A stretch of 48,251 bases of DNA from Methylobacter sp. (GTDB lineage: Bacteria > Pseudomonadota > Gammaproteobacteria > Methylococcales > Methylomonadaceae), in the NCBI GenBank assembly GCA_004299305.1, contig SCPZ01000115.1, positions 1 through 48,251 on the forward strand. The letters run 5' to 3'. The first letter of the stretch is position 1. Every line of letters begins with the position of its first letter. Made by a program: the position numbers and the translations under genes. Positions 28,727 to 46,464 of the stretch are shown here, in pieces. The notes beneath the pieces are model-generated. The model searched no databases, was not told where the DNA came from, and was given only the letters and a program-made list of their open reading frames with translations.

Positions 28727-29008
28727 TAGAACACGGATGGTACGGATTTAACTGATAGTCACAGATGAAAGAATAGTTATTTTGTAACTATTCAGCGAAA
28801 AAAGAAATGGAACACGGATGGCACGGATAGGACGGATTTACACGGATTTTTTAAAATATTCTGTGCTTTTAATCAGTGATTATCCGTTTAATCAGTGTCA
28901 TCCGTGTTCCATTAATCATTTTTAGCATACGCTGAATAGTTACGTTATTTTTTGGCCTCTTAAAAAGCCGTTTAAATCGGGCTGATCAGTGTCATCCGTG
29001 TTCTATTT
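28727..29008. repeat. Nested repeat: AACACGGAT hairpin with a type A element inside
   Basis: The outer arms are AGAACACGGATG (about 28727) and CATCCGTGTTCTATTTT (to about 29008). Within them is a complete type A element (28784-28943) with ends GTAACTATTCAGCG and CGCTGAATAGTTAC, which itself encloses another pair GGAACACGGATGG / CATCCGTGTTCC. This fills the 303-base gap between lspA and ampD; no gene or clear promoter is seen. Confidence 0.8.
28784..28943. repeat. Inverted-repeat element, TIR type A (copy 1)
   Basis: The 14-bp ends GTAACTATTCAGCG are perfect inverted repeats 160 bp apart. The inside carries the AACACGGAT hairpin. The same ends at 45640-45813, in the mmoX leader, enclose a different hairpin. 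Confidence 0.85.
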
Positions 29009-35863: not shown

Positions 35864-37648
35864 TTACATTGCGGCGTATAGCAGGCGGTCGTTTCCGGTT
35901 TTATTTAAACCGAAACGTTCCATTTTTTTATAAAGCGTGGTGCGGGTAATTCCCAATTTTTTGGCGGCCAGGGAAATATTGCCGTCGCAATCCTTTAGCG
36001 CGGTTTTGATGCCGTGTAATTCCCAGTCCGATAGGCTCATAACGGGAAAATTATCCTGTAGGTCAGGAAGTTCCGAGCGAGTCATCTCAAGACATTTTTG
36101 CTGTTTTAATTCAGCGATAAAATCAATCGGTAAATCCTGTGTGCTGATAAACGGGCTGCCGGCGGTATATAGCGTCGCCCGGATAACATTAATCAATTGG
36201 CGAATATTGCCGGGCCAAGGGTGGTGTTCAAACAAGCCGACGACTTCCCGGCAAATTTCAATCGGCGCTTCTTCGGTTGAAATGGCATTTAATTCCCGGC
36301 GCAGGATATGATGAATAATGGCTTTTTTATCGTCGCGGTCGCGCAGGGGAGGCAAATGGATTTGCGCGCCGTTCAGGCGATAGTAAAGGTCGCGCCGGAA
36401 ACGACCGGCTTCAACGGCTTCCAATAATTGCACATTGGTTGCCGCAACCACTTGCACGTCTACCTGTATCGGTTTATTGCCGCCGACCGGCGTAAATTCC
36501 GAGGTTTCCAACACCCGGAGTAAGGTCGATTGCAAATCGAAACTCATATCGCCGATTTCATCGAGAAACAAGATGCCCGTATCGGCCAGCATAAACTTAC
36601 CGGGTTTGCCGGTGCTTTTCGCGCCGGTAAAACTCCCCGATTCGTAACCGAAGAGTTCGCTTTCTATCAAGTCGTGGGGAATGGATGCGCAATTGATAGC
36701 GATTAAAGGGGCGTTGTTCCTGGGGCCCGCCTTTTTAATGAGATTCACAAAATGGTCTTTACCTACCCCAGACTCTCCGGTAATTAAAATAGGGATTTTG
36801 TATTGTTGTAATTTGACAGCCTTTTTTACCAGTTCTTCCAGGGTAGGTGAAACTGCAGCATCGCGGAATTCGGCAGGTGTTTTCGGGGCGGGGCGGAAGG
36901 GAATTTTTTCCAATACCCGCTGCTGCGCCAAGGCGTTTTTGGCTAATGGAAAATCCGTGTTGACCAATACGCAGATAAGATGCAAAAAGGCAAACAATGA
37001 GTTCATGCTTTCCTGATGCTGACTGCTGACCAGGCCGATAACTACCAGCAAGTGGCCGGACTCGTCAAGCAGCGGGTAACCGGCTGTAGTGAAGGGGTGC
37101 AGTACGCTTAAGAAATGCTCCATGCCTTGGAAAACGACCGGCTTTTTCAACTCGATCGCGGTGCCGATGCCGTTATTGCCCAACACCGATTCCAGCCAAT
37201 TAGCGCCTCGTTCACTCGCTCGCGACATGAATGAACCCGGCTGTTGCAGCTGTTCTCCGAGCGTGTATAGCAATTTGCCGTCTGCGGCGGTCAGCATCAG
37301 CATAACGCCGGCTTCTTTAAGAAAAACGTGGAAGTTGTGGTTGAGTTGTTTAATGAGTGTTTCTATTTTTTGAGATGGGTTATCCATCTGAACAGGTTGG
37401 CTGATGATTGGGTAATAATCCCAATTGGAATAATTACCTAATGGCAATCGGTATTCTTCAAGACAGCGTTGCCATGATTCGGTGACTTCAGGGCGCGCCC
37501 AGTCATATTGATCGGGGACTGAACGGGTTTGCGTCATCCATTGCCAAGCCTGCATGGGCCGATAAATCCGATAGTCAATGGTCTGTCTCAGCAAGAAGGA
37601 GTCCTGTGTTAAAGCGGCTTGCGGAGGGATGTTCAGATCTATGGGCAT
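35864..37648 (-). CDS. mmoR: Sigma-54 activator of sMMO, MmoR
   Basis: This 594-aa enhancer-binding protein has an N-terminal GAF-like sensor of the AcoR/DhaR type at about 85-230 (NNGIGTAIELKKPVVFQGME, HPFTTAGYPLLDESGHLLVV), a AAA+ domain with Walker A GESGVGKD (291-298), the sigma-54 contact loop GSFTGA (338-343, serine variant of GAFTGA) and Walker B ILFLDEIGD (359-367), and a C-terminal Fis-type helix-turn-helix (GNISLAAKKLGITRTTLYKK). In known methanotrophs MmoR with RpoN is required for mmoX transcription. It is the last gene of the sMMO cluster, 581 bases beyond mmoG, with a terminator-like hairpin before it, so it should have its own promoter. mmoQ/mmoS are not present beside it. Confidence 0.92.
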   Translation of the reverse strand: MPIDLNIPPQAALTQDSFLLRQTIDYRIYRPMQAWQWMTQTRSVPDQYDWARPEVTESWQRCLEEYRLPLGNYSNWDYYPIISQPVQMDNPSQKIETLIKQLNHNFHVFLKEAGVMLMLTAADGKLLYTLGEQLQQPGSFMSRASERGANWLESVLGNNGIGTAIELKKPVVFQGMEHFLSVLHPFTTAGYPLLDESGHLLVVIGLVSSQHQESMNSLFAFLHLICVLVNTDFPLAKNALAQQRVLEKIPFRPAPKTPAEFRDAAVSPTLEELVKKAVKLQQYKIPILITGESGVGKDHFVNLIKKAGPRNNAPLIAINCASIPHDLIESELFGYESGSFTGAKSTGKPGKFMLADTGILFLDEIGDMSFDLQSTLLRVLETSEFTPVGGNKPIQVDVQVVAATNVQLLEAVEAGRFRRDLYYRLNGAQIHLPPLRDRDDKKAIIHHILRRELNAISTEEAPIEICREVVGLFEHHPWPGNIRQLINVIRATLYTAGSPFISTQDLPIDFIAELKQQKCLEMTRSELPDLQDNFPVMSLSDWELHGIKTALKDCDGNISLAAKKLGITRTTLYKKMERFGLNKTGNDRLLYAAM

Positions 37649-38229: not shown

Positions 38230-39915
38230 TCATGCCCTAGGATCTTCGCGCGTTGCCGCAGCCCATTCGGGTGAATAGCCCGCCATAATCGACAAATCCG
38301 GCACATCCATTATCACGGTTTCTGTGCTGATCAGTGTTGTTATTACGCCAACTGCATTGCGTAGCGCCAGGCGCATGACTTTAACTGGGTCGATAATGCC
38401 GATTTCCAGGAAATTGCCGTAACGTTGCCGTTGCGTATCGACGGTTAAATGATCGTCATCGGCAGCATTCAGCCGGGCAATAACCGCTTCTGAATTCAAC
38501 CCGGCATTACGCGTTAAACTTTGCAATGGTGCTGCCAGCGCCAGCTTCAGGATGGCAATGCCTTGCTGTTGACCGGCATTTTCGGTAATCACGCCGTCCA
38601 GGGTTTTTATGCAGCGAAACAGGGCGGCGCCGCCTCCCGGCAAAACACCTTCTTCAAGCGCTGCTTTGGCTGACATATAGGCATTTTCTATACGAACCAA
38701 GCGCTCCTTGATTTCAAAATCGGTGCTGCCGCCCACGCTGAACACGCCGGTTTTTCCGGACAATAACGCAATACGCTCTTCTAATTCTTCAAAATCGTGT
38801 TTATTGCCGGTTGCCGAACCTTGCCCCGGCTTTTTTGCCAGAATGAAGTCGGCTTGGGTTCGCAATGTGTCAATAAACTGCATGACAGCTTGCCGGTCGC
38901 CTTTAGCCCCGATGATAGTGGTCGCGCCTTCGGTAACGACCACACGTTGAGCCTGGCCCAGCATATCCAAACTAACCTGTTCGAGTTTTGGGCTGCTGTA
39001 ATCGTCCAAAATAGCCTTGCCTCCGGTTAGCAAGGCCAAGTCCTTAAGGCGGTCGACGCGTTTATCTCCGAAGCCTGGCGCTTTAACGGCAATGACTTTA
39101 AAAATGCCCCGCACATGATTCAACAATAAACCGGTCAGGGCTTTATCGACCACATCATCAGCAATGACCAGCAAGCAACGGCCTTCTACCTTGACCTCTT
39201 CCAAAATCGGTATCAAATCCATCAAGTCATTGATTTCCCTGTCGTATAACAGAATATACGGGTTGTCGAGTACGGCTTCTGCGCGCGTTTTATCGGTTAC
39301 AAAATAAGGCGATAAATAACCTTGTTCGTAGTGAATGCCCTCGACGATGTCGAGTTCATCCTCCCGCCCGTTGCCGAGTTGAAAGCTTAGTCGGCCTTCG
39401 CTGCCCAGTTCTTCCAAGGCTTGAGCCAACAATTTACCTACTCCCGGTTCGTCCTTGGTGGCAACCGCAGTGATTTTTTCAATCCAGTCGGCCGTCACGC
39501 CGGTTACCGCTTTTTCCAATAAGTTTTTTTCAACTAAGGCCAGGCCCAAATCCAGGCCTTTTTTCAACTGCAATGGATGAAAGCCCGCAGCGACACTCTT
39601 CATGCTTTCCTGGGCAATTTTTTGCGCCAGTACAATAGCTGTCGTGGTGCCGTCTCCTACCTGCCGGGATACCGCACCCGCCACATCGCGCAACATGCGG
39701 CCGCCCAAATCGGCAATACGGTCTTCAAAGCCGATTGACCTTGCGACCGTCACGCCGTCGCGGGTAAAGACCGGCATCATGCCGTCCGTGCGGTGTTGGA
39801 TCATCACCGCAGGGCCAGAGCCGCCCATAGTTATAACGGCGGCACGAGCGACACTATCAACGCCGTGCATCATTCTTGACCGGGCTTCCGGGTTATAAAT
39901 AATTTGTTTGGTCAT
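38230..39915 (-). CDS. mmoG: GroEL-like chaperonin of the sMMO cluster, MmoG
   Basis: This 561-aa group I chaperonin homologue keeps the ATPase signature VGDGTTTAIVLAQ (D88) and the GGGAALFRC block. It diverges strongly from housekeeping GroEL and lacks the GGM-rich C-terminal tail. In Methylosinus and Methylococcus, MmoG is needed for sMMO expression, probably by folding or assembling sMMO or MmoR. It has no GroES partner here. It starts 10 bases after the 99-aa ORF stop, so it is likely part of the mmoX operon. Confidence 0.93.
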   Translation of the reverse strand: MTKQIIYNPEARSRMMHGVDSVARAAVITMGGSGPAVMIQHRTDGMMPVFTRDGVTVARSIGFEDRIADLGGRMLRDVAGAVSRQVGDGTTTAIVLAQKIAQESMKSVAAGFHPLQLKKGLDLGLALVEKNLLEKAVTGVTADWIEKITAVATKDEPGVGKLLAQALEELGSEGRLSFQLGNGREDELDIVEGIHYEQGYLSPYFVTDKTRAEAVLDNPYILLYDREINDLMDLIPILEEVKVEGRCLLVIADDVVDKALTGLLLNHVRGIFKVIAVKAPGFGDKRVDRLKDLALLTGGKAILDDYSSPKLEQVSLDMLGQAQRVVVTEGATTIIGAKGDRQAVMQFIDTLRTQADFILAKKPGQGSATGNKHDFEELEERIALLSGKTGVFSVGGSTDFEIKERLVRIENAYMSAKAALEEGVLPGGGAALFRCIKTLDGVITENAGQQQGIAILKLALAAPLQSLTRNAGLNSEAVIARLNAADDDHLTVDTQRQRYGNFLEIGIIDPVKVMRLALRNAVGVITTLISTETVIMDVPDLSIMAGYSPEWAAATREDPRA

Positions 39916-44015: not shown

Positions 44016-45599
44016 TTAAAGTGCTTTCAGCGGATCGGCAAAAACACAGTTGAGTTTTTTGATGTCGTCCAATGTCCACAGCTTGCCGTCTTTATCGGTA
44101 TGCGGCTGTGCAATCAGGGTTTTACCGTCGCTACGCACACCGTGCAATTCGGCGATAACTTCGGACAATTCGCGTCCTTCGTATTGTTCAAAGATGTTTT
44201 GGCATTCATAACGTTCAGGCTCGGATAGCCACATGCGCTCGCCCCAGTCGTCGCTGAAGGAATGCTTTTTGCCGTTCAATTCATGCACGCGCAGGGTGCT
44301 TGCGCCTTTGCACAGGCTAGGGCAAAACGGCACTTGGGAGACGCGGTCGATGTAGATGGGGTGATTGTTTTCGATGAACCACATCAACGGAATAAAGCCG
44401 CTGCTTGGATCTTCGCAACCGCGCGCACGCCATTCTTCATAGATTTTGCCGTAGTGCTCGTGCCAGCCGGGGTAGTTAAATTCAAACCATTCCGCCTCTT
44501 CGGCAGTCGGCAGCGTCAAGCGGAAGAATCCGGTCGGCCATAAGGCATAAGCAATCAGGAATAAGTCGTGATGCGCCCAGTAGGCGTCTTTTTTGGCGTC
44601 GCGCAAGCTGGCGGGCGACTGGACGCCGTATTTGCCCAAACGGCCGATCCAGATGCCGCCCCAATCTTCATATACCCAACGGTTCCAGGTTTTAACCCAT
44701 GGCTCGACTTTGAAGTGGCTGCCGTACTCGAATGCCATGCCCAATACCGGGGTAAAGTATTTTTGCTGAGTCCAGAACGCATTGTTCAGGTCGGTATTCA
44801 GGTATTTTGAAGCCGCTTCGTCGTTGGCGATAGACACCACGGTTTGATAACCGTTAGCCATGTGTCGTAACTCATCGGTTTCGATAGACAGGAACACCGT
44901 CGGGGTAATTTCATCGCCGTTTGCAGCCGCCCATTCGGTAACCGCAACGATCAACGGATTGGTAAAGCACGCTTCGCCGACCAACTGCAAGTTAATCGAA
45001 CACTCAACCGCGTCGCCGGAAATAAAGCCGTCCGAGAACACCCGTTTCATGCCTTTCCACAGCGGCCCGATAGTGCGGGTGCGGCGAGCGTCGTTGTGAC
45101 CGGCCGGATCCTGGCCGTTTTTGGAGAAATAATAGTTCACATAACCGCATTGGTTGGTATGACGGATCTCATCCAGTGTTTGCGCCAGGTAACCGTTTTT
45201 TTGCTCAGGCGCGGTTGCCGAATCCCATAACATCCCTGTTGCGGCAATCGCGTTGTATTCGCCCACTTCCAGGAAGTTGGACACCACTTTCATGGTTTCG
45301 TTCCATTTCGGATGTACGCGTTTAGCAGCATCCACGCGAGCCAAAACGTCTTGCAAGCTGCCGAATTGGCGCTCATCTTTAACCGATTCCATACGCGCAT
45401 ATTCTTTAGCGATCAGCTTGAATTGCTCTTTGGTATCGTTGGCCATTTTGTATTTGGTCGGATACTTGGTCCGGTTTTTCTCAAAATCCCAGGTGAAACT
45501 TTGCAACCATCTATGCACTTCCTGTGCATTGACACTAACGGGTGCGCGATTGGCCGCCAGGGCATCCGTCGCTGCTTTTGTTGCTGTACTTATAGCCAT
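44016..45599 (-). CDS. mmoX: sMMO hydroxylase alpha subunit (MmoX)
   Basis: MmoX holds the di-iron centre that oxidises methane to methanol. The 527-aa protein has all iron ligands at the canonical numbers: E114 (EVGEYNA), E144 and H147 (LDEIRHTNQC), E209 (LVGEACF), E243 and H246 (ETDELRHM). C151 and gate residue T213 also match. Cysteine at 151 and the full length separate it from related propane, butane and toluene monooxygenases. AGGAG lies eight bases before the start. It is first in the operon, behind a sigma-54 promoter and a leader of about 296 nt. Confidence 0.98.
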   Translation of the reverse strand: MAISTATKAATDALAANRAPVSVNAQEVHRWLQSFTWDFEKNRTKYPTKYKMANDTKEQFKLIAKEYARMESVKDERQFGSLQDVLARVDAAKRVHPKWNETMKVVSNFLEVGEYNAIAATGMLWDSATAPEQKNGYLAQTLDEIRHTNQCGYVNYYFSKNGQDPAGHNDARRTRTIGPLWKGMKRVFSDGFISGDAVECSINLQLVGEACFTNPLIVAVTEWAAANGDEITPTVFLSIETDELRHMANGYQTVVSIANDEAASKYLNTDLNNAFWTQQKYFTPVLGMAFEYGSHFKVEPWVKTWNRWVYEDWGGIWIGRLGKYGVQSPASLRDAKKDAYWAHHDLFLIAYALWPTGFFRLTLPTAEEAEWFEFNYPGWHEHYGKIYEEWRARGCEDPSSGFIPLMWFIENNHPIYIDRVSQVPFCPSLCKGASTLRVHELNGKKHSFSDDWGERMWLSEPERYECQNIFEQYEGRELSEVIAELHGVRSDGKTLIAQPHTDKDGKLWTLDDIKKLNCVFADPLKAL

Positions 45600-45639
45600 A
45601 TAGACTACTCCTCATGTTTTTGTTTTAGATAAAATCAAA

Positions 45640-45813
45640 GTAACTATTCAGCGCGAAGCACAACATCCCTCTCCAGCGGGAGAGGGCAGGGTGAGGAGGA
45701 ATCAATAAGGACTTTTTCCTATTTAAATTCTCCTCACCCCGACCCTCTCCATCAGGAGAGGGGGAGTTCTTTCAGCAATTTGCGGTTTTTTCAGACACAC
45801 GCTGAATAGTTAC
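45640..45813. repeat. Inverted-repeat element, TIR type A (copy 2), in the mmoX leader
   Basis: The perfect 14-bp inverted ends GTAACTATTCAGCG (45640-45653) and CGCTGAATAGTTAC (45800-45813) enclose the CTCTCC/GGAGAGGG hairpin core seen at 1-170. The element lies wholly between the predicted sMMO transcription start (about 45895) and the mmoX ATG, so it is transcribed as part of the leader. Confidence 0.85.
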
Positions 45814-45905
45814 AAATCAAATAGGCCATCGTTACTATGCAAATGAAGAAATACGACACGTCTTAATGCGAAGTCCCAAGCCGAACGATGACCTGTAACG
45901 CTAAA

Positions 45906-45921
45906 AGCAATCGCCGTGCCA
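45906..45921 (-). promoter_or_regulatory. Sigma-54 promoter of the sMMO operon
   Basis: On the minus strand the sequence is TGGCACG-GCGA-TTGCT, matching TGGCACG-N4-TTGCW exactly with correct GG-N10-GC spacing. The predicted start is near 45895. mmoX promoters of characterised methanotrophs are RpoN dependent, and MmoR is encoded in the cluster. The 865-base gap 45600-46464 thus holds leader, promoter, candidate activator sites, a repeat and a possible small RNA. Confidence 0.88.
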
Positions 45922-45997
45922 ATTTCTTATTTTGATTAAATAGTAATATAAAACAACAGGATGGGATGTGTTGGCGGTAATGGGAAGGGGATTGAAA

Positions 45998-46027
45998 ACT
46001 GTCCAGTTAGTAGACACTGTCCAGTTA
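45998..46027. promoter_or_regulatory. Direct repeat of a palindrome, candidate activator site 1
   Basis: ACTGTCCAGTTA occurs twice at an 18-bp step (45998-46009 and 46016-46027). Each is a small palindrome ACTG-TC-CAGT. The centres lie about 109 and 127 bases upstream of the predicted sMMO start, the usual enhancer distance for a sigma-54 activator. Assignment to MmoR is inference. Confidence 0.5.
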
Positions 46028-46048
46028 TAAGGCGTACAGATTGAGCTA

Positions 46049-46122
46049 CCAACTAAGCAGGGACAGATAACATCCCTTGAAGGGATGTTATCTGTAAAAT
46101 CGTCCCGCTTTAAATTGGAAGT
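46049..46122 (+). repeat. CAGATAACATCCC palindrome element (copy 3)
   Basis: The core palindrome is 46064-46094, with flanks CCAACTAAGCAGGGAC and GTCCCGCTTTAAATTGG as in the copies at 11761 and 21014. It lies between the two candidate activator sites of the sMMO control region. Confidence 0.85.
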
Positions 46123-46172
46123 CACAGTTTGTATGGATAGGCGGCGTCCGGTCGACCGTTAACAATCTACCT

Positions 46173-46202
46173 GCGACAACCTGTCGCGCGACAAAATGTC
46201 AT
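46173..46202. promoter_or_regulatory. Tandem GCGACA-N3-TGTCGC operators, candidate activator site 2
   Basis: GCGACA-ACC-TGTCGC is followed at once by GCGACA-AAA-TGTCAT, giving two palindromic sites in tandem at a 15-bp step and a perfect 12-bp palindrome TGTCGCGCGACA at the junction. They lie about 280-310 bases upstream of the sMMO start and directly upstream of a possible plus-strand -35 at 46204. Confidence 0.6.
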
Positions 46203-46203
46203 A

Positions 46204-46232
46204 TTTACTAAGGGGATAGAGCTGACTAGAAT
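46204..46232 (+). promoter_or_regulatory. Candidate sigma-70 promoter for a small RNA
   Basis: TTTACT (46204-46209), 17 bases, then TAGAAT (46227-46232). The -10 matches five of six consensus bases and the -35 four. The predicted start is near 46239, about 75 bases before a terminator. Confidence 0.45.
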
Positions 46233-46238
46233 GGCCCC

Positions 46239-46314
46239 ACTCTTAATCATTATTACCTCCTAAAGGGTTTTAAGAGCCTTTGTGCGGTCAATATCTGTTG
46301 ACCGCATTTTTTTT
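46239..46314 (+). ncRNA. Possible small RNA upstream of the sMMO operon
   Basis: The interval lies between the candidate promoter and a strong terminator and has no ORF with a start codon of note. It contains an unpaired-looking ACCTCCT, complementary to Shine-Dalgarno sequences, and a weak stem AAAGG/CCTTT before the terminator. It could instead be an attenuated leader of the gene at 46465. Confidence 0.4.
46283..46314 (+). terminator. Rho-independent terminator
   Basis: TGCGGTCAA and TTGACCGCA form a perfect nine-bp stem with a six-base loop and are followed by eight T residues. No annotated plus-strand gene precedes it. Confidence 0.88.
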
Positions 46315-46464
46315 GCGTGCTGATTCGCCTTTCGCTTTTCTTGAGATGCTTTTTTGAGGCAAGTTATCGCGTGGCAACATGCCACAATCTAATTTTCCCC
46401 ATTCAAGCCAAGGATCAAGCCGTTATTGTTTAGCGTTTTGTTATACAGACTCATTGAGGAAATT

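Follow-up and report, generated by a model that had tools for sequence, protein, structure and literature searches.

A MITE-like insertion beside a conserved 5′ stem-loop in the predicted sMMO leader of a Methylobacter strain

In the stretch of Methylobacter sp. DNA analysed here (48,251 nt; the window), a MITE-like element lies in the predicted leader of the sMMO operon, beside an older stem-loop that occupies the predicted 5′ end of the mRNA. On balance we consider it probable that the insertion is tolerated and that its older neighbour most likely protects the mRNA. In the course of events that we propose, a non-autonomous transposon, MITE-like and with IS66-like ends, would have inserted into the sMMO leader of this strain, duplicating 8 bp, so that a leader of 114 nt became one of 296 nt; its landing place would be the short spacer that separates the ribosome binding site from the conserved stem-loop at the very 5′ end of the transcript. 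Sequence comparison establishes the insertion, its duplication, the empty site, the copy number, the covarying stem and the locking of that stem to its promoter; protection of the mRNA is the role that the position of the stem, taken alone, makes most likely. By itself, the element would be a MITE insertion of the ordinary sort, remarkable only for its location. The conserved 5′-terminal stem, probably part of an mRNA-protecting or regulatory leader, is in our judgement the more interesting find.

The sMMO operon and its predicted promoter

The operon is headed by mmoX (44016..45599, minus strand; 527 aa), which was assigned by means of 73 related loci, including 89% in Methylococcus capsulatus. 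The gene itself had no NCBIfam match; mmoY, mmoZ and mmoC downstream were recognised by NCBIfam. Because the reading frames of mmoX, mmoY, mmoZ and mmoC are all intact, the operon that carries the element does not appear to be obviously disabled. Two relatives prove important below: a Methylobacter sp. MAG (L038) and Methylobacter tundripaludum OWC-G53F (L039), whose MmoX proteins are 99% identical to that of the window. Among plasmid records, mmoX matched five, all from Rhodococcus, Mycolicibacterium or Mycobacterium (67–75% identity over 7–27% of the gene), and the element matched none. The window also holds a gene for a sigma-54-dependent activator, the candidate MmoR (35864..37648, minus strand; it matches many sigma-54 activator families, those listed all below their curated cut-offs), and, downstream of mmoY, mmoZ and mmoC, a GroEL-like gene, the candidate mmoG (38230–39915). 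Both names were assigned here by analogy with the systems described in passages of a review (PMC7994243).

An exact match to the sigma-54 promoter, TGGCACGGCGATTGCT, lies at 45906..45921 (minus strand) and predicts a transcription start at 45895 (minus strand), given the usual sigma-54 spacing, which we assume to hold here. This promoter, and a predicted leader of about 296 nt with the element inside it, had been proposed in an earlier reading made without database searches (the sequence-only reading), and both proposals held. The motif alone is weak, with two sites in the window at up to one mismatch against 2.2 expected; the exact pattern, however, occurs eight times in the genome against once for the reversed control, and a strict match was found upstream of mmoX in 56 of 71 rows, which stand for 70 relatives and the window. 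The predicted leader measures 296 nt. With the element and one copy of the target duplication removed it is 114 nt long, equal to the leader of L039 and identical to it at 106 of 114 positions; the empty-site leaders of the two close relatives are 114–115 nt long. A scan of the minus strand from 45500 to 46450 for the sigma-70 consensus returned no site. The start at 45895 is a prediction, and a start downstream of 45640 is argued against indirectly, by the covarying stem at the predicted +1/+2 (see below) and by the lack of a sigma-70 consensus site.

Further upstream lies an activator-like site, ACTGGACAGTGTCTACTAACTGGACAG (45999..46025, minus strand), with its core ~99 nt ahead of the sigma-54 promoter. 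A motif around ACAGTGTCYA at about this distance recurs in 26 of 59 promoter-matched rows, a count without a shuffled control. We regard it as a candidate MmoR site, its function being suggested by sequence.

A mobile insertion in the predicted leader

The element (type A; 45640..45813, minus strand) is 174 bp long, as the sequence-only reading had it, and ends in perfect 14-bp inverted repeats, GTAACTATTCAGCG/CGCTGAATAGTTAC. CCTCTCC/GGAGAGG hairpins lie inside the inverted ends, which are shared with the rest of the family, and the whole is non-coding and too short to encode a transposase. Both flanks carry AAATCAAA, an 8-bp target duplication that reads TTTGATTT on the mRNA strand in the promoter-side copy (45814..45821, minus strand) and the mmoX-side copy (45632..45639, minus strand) alike. 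The sequence-only reading had called the element mobile-looking and had suggested a comparison with relatives; that comparison supplied the uninterrupted site, present once as TTTGATTT in L039 and as TATGATTT in L038, both of which lack the element. Because of the target duplication and the empty site in two relatives, we read the element as a mobile insertion in the predicted sMMO leader. Neither its 10-bp end sequence nor the paired CCTCTCC hairpin was present upstream of mmoX in any of the 70 relative loci (up to 1000 nt; 119 nt for L045, 548 nt for L053 and 792 nt for L073). The element lies 9 nt past the 3′ arm of the conserved stem and 40 nt ahead of the start codon, so that the distance from the stem to the Shine-Dalgarno sequence of mmoX (GAGGAG; 45608..45613, minus strand) is 182 bases longer than without the insertion.

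The element belongs to a family. Its 13-bp end matched the window exactly four times (six times with up to two mismatches, against 0.82 expected) and the genome 80 times, against none for the reversed control. From the list of exact ends we obtained 22 paired copies with facing ends within 400 bp and lengths of 140–311 bp. Sixteen of these are flanked by exact 8-bp duplications, three by duplications with one mismatch and three by flanks with two or more, one of which has a 7-bp exact match. Four copies have a type A interior (CCTCTCC/GGAGAGG palindromes), 17 a type B interior (ATCCGTGTTCC-like repeats) and one has both; a second member of the family in the window (28784–28943) is of type B, and its ends are perfect and its 8-bp duplication exact. 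Inverted ends around a short non-coding body, a target duplication, the empty site in two relatives and many copies per genome make the element MITE-like. Of 23 genomes of the genus, counting this one, 16 contain the 14-bp end; the number per genome is 65 here and 14 at most in the others, which suggests a burst of the family in this genome. A short palindromic repeat, AAAAGTAGGCGCC or one like it, is nested in seven of the 22 copies (L117, L119, L120, L121, L123, L127 and L128, all type B).

IS66 elements have ends that start with GTAA and make an 8-bp duplication. In a genome of the same genus, an IS66-type element of 1695 bp with a 546-aa open frame (L171, 743–2437) has ends, GTAATTATTCAGA, that agree with those of the family at 11 of 13 positions, and from this we infer an IS66-type origin. 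This copy shows no target duplication, and when IS66 elements were searched for automatically under the requirement that similar ends and an 8-bp duplication both be present, none was found. In its own genome the trace of IS66 is one degenerate PF03050 fragment; neither an intact IS66 transposase nor a parent element was found among the 144 contigs, from which a collapsed parent could be missing.

A conserved stem at the predicted 5′ end

Between promoter and element, the window matches a covariance model (R1) of a conserved leader RNA with 87.7 bits (45817..45905, minus strand), the window being one of the training rows of that model. The stem, P1, is formed by a 5′ arm, AGGUCAUCGUU (45884..45894, minus strand; predicted +2 to +12), and a 3′ arm, AACGAUGGCCU (45823..45833, minus strand), which are 50 nt apart in the window. 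By the tip of the leader hairpin lies a conserved core, UUAAGACGUG (45857..45866, minus strand). R1 and the core were derived from alignment A1, which comprises 22 leader rows including the window; a further 13 rows from other clades were aligned separately (A4) and carry a related core, CUUCAAGAC, so the core differs between clades. The rows were chosen by us. Neither alignment includes the leaders that are much lengthened internally (L042, L052, L059, L060, L070 and L097) or deviant leaders such as L043, L068, L069, L071, L073, L101 and L106. The six with inner extensions have longer sMMO leaders (predicted 146–261 nt), and by inspection their extra sequence seems to be within the hairpin, not downstream of it.

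Pairing in the leader is preserved while the sequence varies. In A1, 88.6% of the pair cells of the structure are paired (shuffled mean 80.9%; at most 54.8% when partners are slid), and 12 pairs are changed on both sides, in 38 cells against a shuffled mean of 10.9; none of 500 shuffles reached either value. In A4, where the stem alone was scored, 89.7% are paired, seven pairs are changed on both sides (reached by 2 of 500 shuffles) and the covariation score was reached by none of 500. Further pair types were reached by 35 of 500 shuffles for A1 and 131 of 500 for A4 and are not decisive. The shuffles keep relatedness, and these counts are strong hints, not probabilities.

Across 46 Methylococcales-type leaders, the 5′ and 3′ parts of the same leader bind with a mean of −20.1 kcal/mol, against −13.7 kcal/mol when parts are swapped between loci. 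A duplex test, passed where at most 5 of 200 shuffles did as well, was passed by 36 of the 46, by 0 of 8 beta/gamma-other leaders and by 2 of 12 alpha leaders, alphaproteobacterial leaders thus mostly lacking the stem (groups were set from record titles; two more alpha loci have no promoter match, and L092, L098 and L110, where the mmoX start is missing, were left unused). The ten Methylococcales-type failures comprise three leaders that possess the stem by homology (L038, L056 and L057), three with long inner extensions (L059, L070 and L097) and four with no such stem (L068, L069, L071 and L106).

The position of the stem is tied to the promoter. The strongest helix has its start at the predicted +1/+2 in 30 of 41 leaders, compared with a mean of 2.2 and a maximum of 7 over 60 rounds of letter shuffling (2 of 41 in a single letter shuffle); this set leaves out the window, the alpha- and betaproteobacterial-type loci and the loci that do not match the promoter pattern (L044, L045, L051, L068, L069, L071 and L106). 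The duplex table has pairing at +2 in 38 of 42 leaders and at +1 in 19 of 42 (the 46 Methylococcales-type leaders minus L068, L069, L071 and L106). Within the genome itself, an 11-bp helix at +2 follows just one of the eight exact sigma-54 sites, that of mmoX; the runner-up, at a nifH-like site, is a weaker 9-bp helix at −2, and the remaining six are helices of 5–6 bp from +11 or later. This lock supports the predicted start at 45895 without proving it. With the stem placed at the predicted +2, within a few nucleotides of the predicted 5′ end, about one nucleotide would remain unpaired at the start of the mRNA.

Distribution of the leader RNA

Among the 74 sources searched with R1, 32 were matched on the coding strand (E ≤ 1). 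This number includes the 22 training rows; four of the other ten reached E ≤ 0.01 (L052, L107, L100 and L059), and there were six weak minus-strand echoes. Under strict filters (E ≤ 0.01), 17 of 201 genomes of the order were matched, once each. Sixteen of the 17 matches lie just upstream of mmoX, at 26–40 nt, or at 217 nt in the window owing to the element. The seventeenth (G136; L190, 1480–1935) has a promoter and stem largely kept ahead of a truncated, broken mmoX remnant. Since mmoX is present in 47 of the 201 genomes, many mmoX leaders are missed by R1; in the A4 leaders the stem is present and the core is different. Across the class, this genome was the only one of 274 to be matched under strict filters. 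One genome (G140) has two mmoX copies, on C17 and C105, and the R1 leader match is at the C17 copy only.

A covarying structure at a fixed place before one gene makes this leader RNA, as judged from the alignments, a new example of a structured cis-acting leader. Rfam 15 had no match in the window at gathering score. A relaxed search of 45590–45960 gave 39 matches, all below their gathering scores, of which a single one fell entirely within the part of the leader that precedes the element; 33 of the 39 were microRNA-precursor families, which we rejected, being far below their cut-offs and typical of a long hairpin. None of the titles and abstract openings listed in the literature searches dealt with the mmoX leader stem or with the element, and the passages concerned of a transcript-start study in the type II methanotroph Methylosinus sporium (PMC12403871) contain no mmoX leader.

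Predicted folding with and without the element

As RNA, the element is predicted to fold with −90 kcal/mol (z −11.5), a stability reached by none of 200 shuffles, into a helix with internal loops. When the leader was folded alone, the two ends of the element paired together with a probability of ~1.0, the pairing of P1 was ~0.9–1.0, and the openness of GAGGAG was nearly equal with and without the element. Through the mutual pairing of its two ends, the element would form a largely self-contained hairpin, and the promoter, the 5′ stem and the ribosome site are consequently predicted still to work. With 30 nt of coding sequence added, P1 pairing stayed at ~0.9–1.0 with and without the element; pairing of the element ends fell to ~0.8, part of the element re-paired in the minimum-energy fold, and the central Shine-Dalgarno positions were ~0.5 open with the element against ~0.7 without it. 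A modest cost of the element to translation is therefore conceivable from these models. The sequence-only reading had pictured a highly folded RNA just before mmoX: the folding stands, whilst taking it for a block to translation does not, since 40 nt remain to the start codon.

With 60 nt of coding sequence, the probability of P1 in the window was ~0.4, long-range pairings being preferred, and for L039 and L038, too, other pairings were chosen at minimum energy; the case for P1 consequently rests on covariation and not on energy. In the folds of all three leaders, that of the window included, the mmoX start can pair with the 3′ arm of P1. We rejected this pairing as a general switch because, by inspection, the arm varies between clades and the start codon shows no matching change. 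A pairing between loop and Shine-Dalgarno region (between GAC in the core and GUC behind the Shine-Dalgarno sequence) showed no covariation by inspection and was also rejected: GAC is kept without GUC in L048, L053 and L050, and GUC without GAC in L046. A terminator scan of the minus strand from 45500 to 46450 found no site, the two matches in the element being on the plus strand.

A probably tolerated insertion, and alternatives

The reading we favour is that the insertion is tolerated, with little effect expected on promoter, 5′ stem or ribosome binding, and that the older stem-loop most likely guards the 5′ end of the sMMO mRNA against end-dependent decay. The stem-loop may double as a regulatory platform through its conserved UUAAGAC core, which suggests something beyond a plain clamp. 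Copper enters at this point, sMMO being under a copper switch that the corresponding passages of a review frame in terms of regulators and sensors (PMC7994243). This switch, the conserved core and the occurrence of all R1 matches ahead of mmoX or its remnant (17 of 201 genomes, one each) would suit a leader that acts as a real sensor (of copper or a metallophore) or as a switch that binds a regulatory protein, its coupling to the ribosome site being altered by the insertion. We think this unlikely: the stem is 182 bases further from the Shine-Dalgarno sequence here and yet the frames examined are intact, the core varies between clades, and inspection disclosed no conserved alternative pairing with the ribosome site. 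The bolder proposal, that in sMMO mRNAs across this order a previously undescribed 5′-end RNA senses or mediates the copper switch after initiation and that the insertion adds a second processable hairpin before the ribosome site, strikes us as distinctly unlikely; were the copper-sensing reading true, this insertion would be a natural experiment in rewiring a leader RNA.

Other alternatives give the element the active part or question the RNA. RNase III may cut the element hairpin, so that the 5′ protective stem is detached from the coding region and sMMO expression is reduced or shifted in time; a 174-nt hairpin of this stability and the Correia/NEMIS precedent (PMC10969869, PMC2229807, in the passages concerned) speak for such post-transcriptional control, an unlikely contender, against which stand a helix interrupted by internal loops, the intact frames of mmoX, mmoY, mmoZ and mmoC and the fact that the case is known from the sequence of one strain. 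That so strong a leader hairpin acts instead on elongation, by pausing or attenuation that mainly cuts operon expression, is very improbable, the terminator scan having given its two element matches on the plus strand and no minus-strand site. Covariation alone does not separate RNA from DNA hairpins and R1 has six weak minus-strand matches, so the promoter-proximal inverted repeat might be a DNA-level site, a protein operator or a cruciform; we hold this to be the least probable of all, with arms that are 50 nt apart in the window, begin at the predicted +1/+2 in most leaders tested and vary in sequence with pairing preserved. Returning to the tolerated insertion, the strain and its empty-site relatives offer a natural comparison of how much distance and extra structure are tolerated, and the promoter-locked conserved 5′ stem suggests a post-transcriptional layer in sMMO control.

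Relation to known systems

The ompA leader is the type example of a 5′-terminal mRNA-stabilising stem-loop. The mmoX leader stem resembles it in lying at the predicted 5′ end behind about one unpaired nucleotide, and differs in its conserved internal core and in that R1 matched only mmoX leaders in the genomes searched. Stem-loops have a general protective role for mRNA, according to the pertinent passages of PMC7509114.

The duplication made by Correia elements is of the TA type. Correia/NEMIS repeats of Neisseria are otherwise a close parallel to the element, being short and non-autonomous, with inverted ends, target duplications and stable RNA hairpins in transcripts (PMC2229807, PMC10969869, as far as the passages concerned describe them); the element has other ends, another host, an 8-bp duplication and the sMMO operon as its site, and is known here from sequence. 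The same passages describe transcript MITEs that alter the fate of RNA, namely Correia/NEMIS with RNase III and ERIC with RNase E (PMC10969869, PMC2229807). The element would add another host and operon to MITEs inside transcripts, its processing as RNA being a possibility by analogy. With IS66-type elements and MITEs it shares a GTAA start of the ends, the 8-bp duplication and, with L171, 11/13 identity of the ends; the comparison is one of ends only, with no intact IS66 transposase in this genome and no target duplication at L171. The inner hairpins of type A presumably resemble REP/BIME-type palindromes (CCCTCTCC...GGAGAGGG), from which they differ in sitting within mobile inverted ends with 8-bp duplications.

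A second insert in the control region

A second-family insert of 80 bp (46044–46123) was found by eye just upstream of the activator-like site. It is flanked by CAAACTGT and CAATCTGT, 8 bp each and differing at one position, and is missing in L038 and L039, which have a single CAAACTGT there (MAFFT placed the gap slightly differently). Most of its sequence recurs at 40 or more genomic places, 40 of 138 candidates having been scored. With the insert at 45640–45813, two repeats would thus have entered the control region without breaking up the activator-like site, the promoter, the stem or the ribosome site.
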